Positions 57,425 through 59,911 of a DNA stretch of 64,000 nt are shown here, piece after piece. Position 1 is the stretch's first letter, and each line of letters opens with the position of its first letter. The position numbers and the translations under genes are program-made. The DNA lies in contig NZ_JAQMHX010000001.1 of assembly GCF_028331445.1 (NCBI RefSeq), forward strand, positions 310,001-374,000, given 5' to 3'. This DNA is from Candidatus Phyllobacterium onerii. GTDB lineage: Bacteria > Pseudomonadota > Alphaproteobacteria > Rhizobiales > Rhizobiaceae. Below the pieces are notes generated by a model. That model searched no databases. It had not been told where the DNA came from and saw only the letters and a program-made list of their open reading frames with translations.

Positions 57425-57469
57425 TACTTTGGACCTATTTCTCGACGTATGATATTGCTGCATAATCGA

Positions 57470-57673
57470 ATGATGACGAGGATGCATTGCGACGGCCACG
57501 ATGCCATTATCGAGTTCGACGAACGCGCCAATGTTTTTCATGGCGAGACTATCGATTTACGTGACGTGATCACGTTTCAGGCATCGTCAGCGTCTGACCT
57601 GAGGCAAGCTTTTGCTGAATCCCTTGAAGATTATTTTGCATTTTGTGCCAAGCTCGCGGAAAGCGCGGATTAG
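57470..57673 (+). CDS. HicB-like antitoxin remnant (N-terminal domain only)
   Basis: Matches the partial RNase H-like domain of HicB antitoxins (HDAIIEFDERANVFHGETID, then TFQASSASDLRQAFAESLED). It stops at YFAFCAKLAESAD, just where the C-terminal DNA-binding RHH region usually begins. There is no HicA gene nearby and no clear ribosome-binding site at ATG 57470, 57473 or 57449. The stop is 17 bases before the left inverted repeat of the DUF559 element. It could be a truncated orphan or a relict. Confidence 0.5.
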   Translation: MMTRMHCDGHDAIIEFDERANVFHGETIDLRDVITFQASSASDLRQAFAESLEDYFAFCAKLAESAD

Positions 57674-57689
57674 TGCAAAAGCCGATGCG

Positions 57690-57770
57690 ATTATCTCCCC
57701 CCCTTGCGGGGGAGAAAGCGATTTCAGCATCTTAGCTCTTTCTAAGTGCTAGACATCGCAAGAGAGGGGA
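57690..57770. repeat. Left inverted repeat of the DUF559 element
   Basis: 81 bp. The outer hairpin is TCTCCCCC/GGGGGAGA; the inner dyad contains CTTAG/CTAAG. The three differences from the right arm fall in the inner hairpin, and two of them break a pair, so this copy is the more decayed. Confidence 0.8.
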
Positions 57771-57786
57771 TTTTCAGGAGGCAAAC

Positions 57787-58137
57787 ATACGTCGTGAGGT
57801 AACACCAAGGATCCGCACGTTTGCGCGCCATATGCGCCAGGATGCGACACAGGGCGAGAATACGTTGTGGCAGGCAATCCGCAACAAGCAATTGGGCGGT
57901 TTGAAGTTCAAGCGCCAGTTTCCCCTTGAAAATTGTATCCTCGATTTTGTCTGTCTGGAAGCCAGGCTCATCATTGAGCTCGATGGTTGCCAGCACTCGT
58001 CTTCCAACGCAGATATCAAGCGCGATCTGCATTTCGCACGTCTGAGATTCAGGACCCTGCGTTTTTGGAACGATGAGGTGACAAACAATCTAGACGGTGT
58101 CTGTTCACACATTTTGCGTGAAGCATTGAACGAATAG
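57787..58137 (+). CDS. DUF559 (Vsr-like endonuclease-fold) protein with apparent ATA start
   Basis: A 116-aa DUF559 protein whose fold is related to very-short-patch repair and restriction endonucleases. Family marks are TQGENTLWQAIRNKQLGGLK, FKRQFPLENCILDFVCLEAR, and the ExD/H-like LIIELDGCQH. It ends in FWNDEVTNNLDGVCSHIL. The family N-terminus (RREVTPRIRTFARHMR) is encoded upstream of the first ATG at 57832. An ideal AGGAGG (57776-57781) stands 5 bases before ATA 57787, so either ATA is used or ATG has mutated. Confidence 0.8.
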   Translation: MRREVTPRIRTFARHMRQDATQGENTLWQAIRNKQLGGLKFKRQFPLENCILDFVCLEARLIIELDGCQHSSSNADIKRDLHFARLRFRTLRFWNDEVTNNLDGVCSHILREALNE

Positions 58138-58152
58138 AGAGAATAAATCATA

Positions 58153-58232
58153 TCCCCTCTCTTGCGATTTCTAGCACTTAGCATGAGCTAAGATGCTGAA
58201 ATCGCTTTCTCCCCCGCAAGGGGGGAGATAAT
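58153..58232. repeat. Right inverted repeat of the DUF559 element
   Basis: 80 bp. The inner hairpin is intact: GCGATTTC (58164-58171) with GAAATCGC (58198-58205), AGCA with TGCT, and CTTAGC (58177-58182) with GCTAAG (58187-58192), with an ATGA loop and two single-base bulges. The outer hairpin is the GC-rich TCTCCCCC-type stem. Confidence 0.8.
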
Positions 58233-58348
58233 CCTCATTGACGTTGAGGACAACCCTCTTCATCCATCCTGTGAACGATCGGAATCACTTTCGTCGTAGG
58301 CGCCAGTAACCCATTGCGCCGACTCGACATTTGCTTTAAAGGCCCGCC

Positions 58349-59911
58349 ATGAACACACCCACTCATCCAGATACAGTCCTCATCGTCGATTTCGGCAGTC
58401 AGGTGACGCAGCTGATTGCACGGCGCGTGCGTGAAGCTGGCGTCTATTCCGAGATCGTTCCGTTCCAGTCCGCAGGCGAAGCCTTCCACCGCATCAACCC
58501 GAAAGCAGTCATCCTCTCGGGTAGTCCGCACTCCACTGTTGATATCGGCAGTCCGCGCGCACCGCAGGAAGTCTTCGACGCAAATATCCCGGTTCTCGGT
58601 ATATGCTACGGTGAACAGACCATGTGCGCCCAGCTCGGCGGTAAGGTCGAAGCCGGGCATCACCGCGAATTCGGCCGCGCCTTTCTCGACATTCAGGAAG
58701 AATGCGCGCTGTTCGATGACGTTTGGGCCAAGGGCACACGCCATCAGGTGTGGATGAGCCATGGCGACAAGGTTATGGAGATACCCGATGGCTTCAAGGT
58801 CGTCGGCACTTCCACGGGTGCGCCCTTCGCGGCGATCGCCAACGAGGCCAAAAAATATTACGCCGTCCAGTTCCACCCGGAAGTGGTGCACACACCGGAC
58901 GGGGCTAAGCTTCTGGAAAACTTCGTCCATCGCATTGCCGGAATTGAAGGCGACTGGTCGATGTCGGCCTACCGTGAAAAGGCGGTCGATCTCATCCGCA
59001 AGCAGGTTGGCGACAAGAAAGTCATCTGTGCTTTGTCCGGCGGTGTCGACTCTTCTGTTGCGGCCCTGCTGATCCATGAAGCGGTTGGCGACCAGCTGAC
59101 CTGCATCCTCGTCGACCACGGCCTGATGCGCAAGAACGAAGCCGCCGATGTCGTCCAGATGTTCCGCGAGCATTATAATCTGCCATTGATTCTCGTGAAT
59201 GCGCAGGATCGTTTCATCAACGCACTCGAGGGCGAATCCGACCCCGAGAAGAAGCGCAAGACGATTGGCAGGCTTTTCATCGAAGTCTTTGAAGAGGAAG
59301 CCAAAAAGCTTGGCGGTGCTGATTTCCTTGCACAGGGCACGCTCTACCCCGACGTGATCGAAAGCGTGTCGTTCACCGGCGGACCGTCGGTGACGATCAA
59401 ATCGCACCACAATGTCGGCGGCCTTCCCGAACGCATGAACATGAAGCTGGTCGAGCCGCTGCGCGAACTCTTCAAGGATGAAGTGCGGGTGCTCGGCAAG
59501 GAGCTTGGCTTGCCGGACCATTTCATCGGTCGGCATCCCTTCCCGGGACCGGGTCTCGCGATACGCTGCCCGGGCGGCATCACGCGTGAGAAGCTGGAAA
59601 TCCTGCGCGAGGCCGACGCGGTTTATCTCGACGAGATCCGCAAGGCCGGTCTCTACGATGTCATCTGGCAGGCCTTCGCCGTGCTGCTCCCGGTGCAGAC
59701 CGTAGGCGTCATGGGCGATGGCCGTACCTACGAGTTCGTCTGCGCCCTGCGTGCTGTGACCTCGGTCGATGGCATGACCGCCGATTTTTACCACTATGAC
59801 ATGAGTTTTCTTGGTCAGGCCGCAACGCGCATCATCAATGAAGTCAAGGGCATCAATCGCGTTGTCTACGACGTCACTTCAAAGCCGCCCGGTACGATCG
59901 AGTGGGAGTGA
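58349..59911 (+). CDS. guaA: GMP synthase (glutamine-hydrolysing)
   Basis: Converts XMP to GMP with glutamine and ATP. A 520-aa fusion of a class I glutamine amidotransferase (Cys86 in LGICYGEQT, His/Glu in QFHPEVVHT) and an ATP pyrophosphatase ([12 protein letters not shown]) with the dimerisation tail ending PPGTIEWE. All motifs are intact. It stands about 115 bases past the DUF559 element, whose right arm could affect its promoter region. Confidence 0.97.

Follow-up and report, generated by a model that had tools for sequence, protein, structure and literature searches.

Repeats mobilised by a transposase have precedents in the REP/RAYT systems and in insertion sequences with their MITE derivatives. 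Insertion sequences and MITEs are recognised by terminal inverted repeats, by the occurrence of gene-carrying and gene-less forms, and by empty sites. In REP/RAYT units (REPtron, REPIN; TIRYT/TIRtron of PMC3733652), a single gene is located between inverted palindromes. The enzyme of these units is an HUH tyrosine transposase, and their hairpins are accompanied by the tag GTAG. In the stem-loop-replacing transposition of IS1272 (PMC5678879), an inverted repeat gives way to an element that has inverted repeats itself; this is the nearest published parallel for such a replacement that we met. On the protein side, the homing endonuclease I-Bth0305I and Vsr-like nucleases have the fold that is predicted for DUF559 proteins. 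Proteins of the DUF559 type have themselves been treated as a repair enzyme or as a structure, the former in the case of VsrA from Caulobacter, which the accessible text of PMC12907096 links to a cytosine methyltransferase and the SOS response, the latter in the case of PDB 3hrl. That text mentions neither palindromes nor inverted repeats in connection with VsrA, and a link between DUF559 and palindromes was not found in the open-access papers searched, a scope that largely leaves aside subscription papers and preprints.

With REP/RAYT, the DUF559 units have in common the single gene between inverted palindromes, the dispersed palindromes, the inverted doublets, a hairpin with an adjacent tag, and insertion without a target duplication that could be seen. 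However, their arms are longer, about 83 bp with two hairpins, the tag is polar and purine-rich (GTGAGGG or AGAGGGG), and the gene product is a predicted Vsr-fold nuclease. Because the HUH enzyme is absent, the DUF559 unit is not a member of REP/RAYT. It resembles insertion sequences and MITEs in the properties named above, but differs from them by the absence of a known transposase class and of a visible target duplication. Replacement of one inverted repeat by another is the likeness to IS1272, which encodes a large transposase, whereas the predicted nuclease has about 116 aa. Unlike I-Bth0305I, DUF559 is flanked by its own repeated palindromes, and it may not be bound to one fixed target; units of the type studied here are found at several sites, though in slots that often hold palindromes.

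The unit is located in a window of 64,000 nucleotides, the whole stretch of DNA that was analysed, from Candidatus Phyllobacterium onerii. It extends from 57689 to 58233 on the plus strand and belongs to type 1, with homology to units L034 and L036 from about arm end to arm end. The left arm (57689 to 57772, plus strand) contains an outer GC hairpin (57694-57715), a second hairpin (57718-57759), and the purine tag AGAGAGGGGATT (57761-57772), which faces the gene. The right arm (58152 to 58233, minus strand) is inverted. The arms, about 83 bp each, were re-aligned over 83 columns at 95% identity, and the counts of the preliminary description, three substitutions and one indel (of 1 base), were obtained again. 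Self-comparison of the locus yielded 129 bits for the pair; given this score and the rate of 2/415 among control genes (see below), a chance origin of the arms was ruled out. As single-stranded DNA, the left arm is predicted to fold with -18.4 kcal/mol (z -3.45), and 1 of 200 shuffled sequences folded as well. Both arms of the window are of type A, whereas in most other type-1 gene units the two arms differ in type, one being A and one B; together with the 95% identity this suggests conversion between the two arms. The single small DUF559 gene reported between the arms (57787 to 58137, plus strand) was recognised by Pfam as well, its frame matching PF04480 (DUF559) with E=1.6e-35 and the domain extending from 57811 to 58122 (plus strand). 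The other Pfam match of the frame, MTES_1575, is below the cut-off of that family, and no known transposase class is among the Pfam matches of the unit.

A structure model of the window protein (pLDDT 88.9) was compared with solved structures using Foldseek. The nearest one was PDB 3hrl, a DUF559 protein from Neisseria (NGO0050; E 9e-7), followed by the homing endonuclease I-Bth0305I (PDB 3r3p; E 7.5e-4, probability 1.00), and Vsr itself was matched weakly (E 0.13). The Vsr-like endonuclease fold surmised earlier for DUF559 is in agreement with the predicted model. Toxoplasma mitoribosomal proteins were also among the structural matches (E 0.0026). The Vsr family PF03852 was not among the Pfam matches up to E=1. 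All 57 DUF559 proteins that were compared share 17 invariant positions. Among 21 type-1 pairs, 10 gave a dN/dS value, between 0.09 and 0.25, which lends weak support as dS exceeds 1.5 in nine of those pairs. Two other identities of the gene were rejected, that of a defence gene with no PADLOC match up to E=1, and that of a phage gene with matches in 2 of 50,697 phage records and weak PHROG matches (best E 0.007).

The translation start of the gene may be unusual. In the window, neither ATG nor GTG nor TTG occurs in the DUF559 frame before 57832. In all seven Phyllobacterium type-1 genes (57787-57789 in the window, L034, L036, L037, L044, L049, and L050), ATA, ATC or ATT is found where the ATG of relatives (for example L232, L239, and L241) is aligned by eye, and in five of the seven no in-frame ATG, GTG or TTG occurs within 90 bases upstream of the domain. 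For the window gene, ATA at 57787 is proposed as the start (116 aa), with ATG at 57832 as the alternative (101 aa). In several type-1 genes the non-ATG position adjoins a possible ribosome-binding site, either the purine tag of the arm or, in the window, AGGAGG at 57776 to 57781 (plus strand), a putative site read from the sequence. On one reading the codon is a rare start that keeps expression low; alternatively, translation may begin at an internal ATG.

To characterise the association of gene and palindromes, 450 bases on each side of DUF559 genes were scanned for inverted repeats. The genus set consisted of 26 loci from 20 genomes. The order set, drawn by the family HMM from 81 genomes, contained 63 usable loci from 72 rows; the nine rows left out comprised two from the window's own genome that the genus set already contained, one half (the second) of a split gene, and six incomplete matches (22-44 bits). 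For the named set, the best 80 of a longer list were taken according to similarity to the window's protein. Removal of six duplicates of named-record loci with identical domain DNA (five Phyllobacterium loci of the genus set and one Hyphomicrobiales MAG of the order set) left 163 distinct loci, and loci clipped by contig ends still counted towards the totals. As controls, 415 computed open frames, not curated genes, were taken from the window and from 20 further regions of 20 kb each. Inverted arms of at least 40 bits were detected on both sides of 84 of the 163 DUF559 loci compared with 2 of 415 control genes, and any adjacent inverted repeat at 133 compared with 43. By set, both-side arms are present at 7/26 loci of the genus, 35/63 of the order, and 46/80 among the best 80 named ones. 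Inverted arms around other DUF559 genes, which the preliminary description had left to a search of related genomes, are thus frequent. At 30/163 loci a strong adjacent inverted repeat is missing, and ycjD of E. coli is accompanied by a palindrome on a single side. Within 60 bp of the domain, GTGAGGG points towards the gene at 26 of the 163 loci and away from it at one; the bias is weaker within 200 bases. Outside the 163 loci, seven plasmid loci of 44 matching records were tested. Flanking arms were detected at all four from Deinococcus (103, 89, 57, and 38 bits) and at one of three from cyanobacteria (113 bits), the other two being without strong ones. The association between gene and palindromes is general across bacteria.

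With flanks of 600 bases, true Vsr genes had no adjacent repeats of at least 40 bits, neither flanking (0/29) nor of any kind (0/29), while the RAYT-type Y1_Tnp genes used as a positive control had flanking ones in 5/24 and any in 10/24 cases; one of 30 Vsr loci and six of 30 Y1_Tnp loci had been dropped as clipped. The Vsr result speaks against DUF559 being a chromosomal Vsr-like repair enzyme next to palindromes that are regulatory, as terminators or ribosome-binding leader, or that have accumulated by chance. Such an enzyme would be in line with the reported connections of VsrA, and a regulatory role with the tag at the expected position of a ribosome-binding site in some type-1 units. However, DUF559 is patchy, being present in 35 of 81 genomes of the order, and type-1 units reside at several unrelated sites, so that we regard this explanation as quite improbable.

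Searching the 6.0-Mb draft genome (G000) with the arm revealed 32 matches, grouped into 22 places, mostly gene-less doublets of about 184 bp; the arms therefore occur more than once. All 12 gene-less plus-strand copies that were inspected consist of arm A and, beyond a short spacer and in inverted orientation, a variant arm B, with arm A shortened in the L024 doublet. One doublet as single-stranded DNA has a predicted fold of -56.5 kcal/mol (z = -10). Arms are likewise repeated in five of six genomes whose own arm was part of the query, with 41-81 matches to the six-arm query. In Helicobacter sp. 15-1451, arm matches at E<=0.001 are only the two beside its gene, and shorter related C-rich palindromes are found near the unit. 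The DUF559 locus of Pseudomonas rhizoryzae has no adjacent repeat of at least 28 bits, yet its genome gave 77 matches to the arms of other genomes.

Comparison of genes and palindromes within Phyllobacterium revealed a close correspondence. Five palindrome families, assigned by DNA alone, coincide with five DUF559 protein clades at all 26 loci, four of which supplied the reference palindromes. Mapped on the protein tree, the palindrome family changes four times, which is the minimum and a value as low in 0/200 shuffles. The type-2 clade is weakly supported (51/44), and the match of L051 to its family reaches no more than 30 bits. Genes of types 2-5 are accompanied by their palindrome on just one side, and many of their loci represent one inherited slot, so that the correspondence there is partly co-inheritance. 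Across 20 genomes, repeat matches of types 1-3 were more numerous in genomes that carry a gene of the same type (p=0.002, 0.0002, and 0.003), while the six non-matching pairings showed no association (all p>0.12); these figures are match counts, not element counts, as palindromes can match on both strands, and the p values overstate independence, the genomes and loci being related. Three of 14 genomes without a type-1 gene contain 78, 41, and 35 type-1 matches, for which gene loss or another mover is needed.

Another transposase, RAYT/HUH or a DDE insertion sequence, could be such a mover if it mobilised both the doublets and the DUF559 unit via the arms. The precedents of REP/RAYT and of insertion sequences with MITEs make this conceivable, and doublets are indeed abundant in some genomes lacking the gene. 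However, a search with the PF01797 profile (Y1_Tnp) alone gave no match to a RAYT-type transposase in this genome or in three others of the family, no target duplication was seen at seven unit sites, and the match between gene type and repeat type would be left unexplained. We consider this explanation very improbable. The preliminary description had proposed a REP/RAYT-like unit with a different enzyme, and this proposal passed the three checks set for it: the arms are present in many copies, inverted arms surround other DUF559 genes, and the unit is missing from the interval in 19 of 19 relatives. It is strengthened further by the match of gene and repeat types and by the genome without PF01797.

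Ten type-1 pairs among L031, L034, L036, L037, L044, and L049 were compared, pairs with L050 being set aside. In seven, for example L034 with L031, L036 or L037, homology ends close to the arm ends; in three (L034-L044, L034-L049, and L037-L049) it extends about 60-95 bases beyond one arm, so that some sites are possibly related. L036 and L050 occupy a common site with the unit in opposite orientation relative to it, and other type-1 units lie at several unrelated sites. No target duplication was visible by eye at the window site, as noted before, or at six other type-1 sites. On three Deinococcus plasmids, the DUF559 gene is found at different places among hpa genes. Considering the Deinococcus plasmid loci L331, L334, L335, and L337 together, the unit position varies among hpa genes and in one case lies among paa genes.

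The site in the window is flanked on the left by a frame of 74 codons (57449 to 57673, plus strand, read by eye), apparently a remnant of what we take to be hicB. Its sole Pfam match, to UPF0150-like, is weak (E=0.12). A longer related frame was read by eye in several sister species, and the gene in this genome appears to have lost its 3' part. The right-hand neighbour (58349 to 59911, plus strand), presumably guaA by our own recognition and the name given earlier, served as a marker for empty sites. Arm, gene, and doublet are missing at guaA in all 19 relatives, so the empty site sought in the hicB-guaA interval does exist. In four relatives some other palindrome was seen by eye at this place. 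A doublet that was present at guaA before the gene arrived was ruled out, as 0/19 relatives have one.

Fifteen doublet sites were compared with four sister genomes, and both flanks were found in 57 of the 60 comparisons. The element is present in 18/60, and at every site it is missing from at least one sister. No clean insertion junctions were obtained in Phyllobacterium from these 15 sites, because the slots hold other palindromes or changed sequence. A different palindrome family was seen by eye in the same slot of a sister at at least eight of the 15 sites (L004, L010, L011, L012, L014, L015, L016, and L019 of G000). The intergenic slots look as if palindromes replace one another. At L054 (G016), a type-3 palindrome and gene are located between flanks that enclose their type-2 counterparts in five other genomes; by sequence comparison this is a cassette replacement. 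Overall, mobility of the unit is well supported.

The exchange at L054, the slots with different palindromes in sister species, and the many doublets without a gene could also be obtained if DUF559 were a selfish nuclease of the homing type and its gene inserted into palindromes that something else spreads, the palindromes being landing pads, not cargo. That its fold neighbour I-Bth0305I is a homing endonuclease, and that C-rich palindromes occur near the Helicobacter unit, would agree with this. However, repeat counts track the matching gene type only, and landing pads would explain the slots but not the match in copy number. Also against it are the agreement of gene clade and palindrome family in 26/26 loci, guaA, where 0/19 relatives offer an arm or doublet as a pad, and Helicobacter, where arm matches at E<=0.001 are confined to the two copies beside the gene. 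Landing of the gene in foreign palindromes is therefore judged unlikely.

From these comparisons it appears fairly likely that the unit represents a family of mobile palindromic repeats in its gene-carrying form, with DUF559 as the dedicated Vsr-fold (PD-(D/E)XK-type) nuclease of these repeats, a REP/RAYT-like partnership that perhaps moves by palindrome replacement. Its architecture, the association, the mostly sharp borders, site polymorphism, one cassette replacement, and the match of gene type and repeat type are directly supported. We infer that DUF559 catalyses the movement, that doublets are mobilised in trans, and that DNA is broken and repaired in the process, not transposed with target duplication. 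DUF559 would probably recognise the arm, consisting of the hairpin and the purine-rich tag facing the gene, and would nick or break DNA at the arm or at another palindrome. Repair could then copy the arm-gene-arm unit, or in trans a gene-less doublet, into the cut place, and the resident palindrome would often be replaced in the process.

The results suggest that units of gene and palindromes form a kind of mobile DNA that has gone unrecognised. The pairing of DUF559, with its putative activity, and palindromes would be a new type of partnership between enzyme and repeat; neither the enzyme that defines REP/RAYT nor the target duplication of insertion sequences was found. Whether DUF559 nucleases even constitute a new class of bacterial mobile DNA, alongside DDE, HUH, tyrosine, and serine enzymes, is nearly evenly balanced, and we lean slightly towards it; a lone Vsr-fold nuclease would then cut palindromes that are replaced during repair, and in this way spread its own palindromic arms, either together with the gene or alone. 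If true, many orphan GC-rich palindromes of the CCCTCTCCC...GGGTGAGGG type in Alphaproteobacteria and other bacteria would be accounted for. For several families of palindromes, in Proteobacteria, Deinococcus, a cyanobacterium, Helicobacter, and others, DUF559 proteins are now candidate enzymes, and the question can be tested with one gene and one 184-bp substrate. A function would be given to a domain of unknown function, and a second look is suggested at DUF559 proteins currently treated as repair enzymes.

Some further observations concern the palindromes. Both window arms gave matches to the Rfam whalefall-1 RNA, at 58154-58231 (minus strand, 20.4 bits) and 57691-57769 (plus strand, 15.2 bits). 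A known RNA was rejected as the identity of the arms, since both matches are below the cut-off of 37, but the whalefall-1 family may include such palindromes among its members. A second DUF559 gene of the genome, L032 (G000:C9:208537), is broken by a TGA and adjoins a type-3 palindrome. At L181, L184, L186, and L219 the slots are occupied by a further palindrome, which reads CGTGGTTCGACAAGCTCACCATGAGGGA or nearly so. In L204 and L224, a doublet seems to have shrunk to its two ends, fused into a short hairpin.
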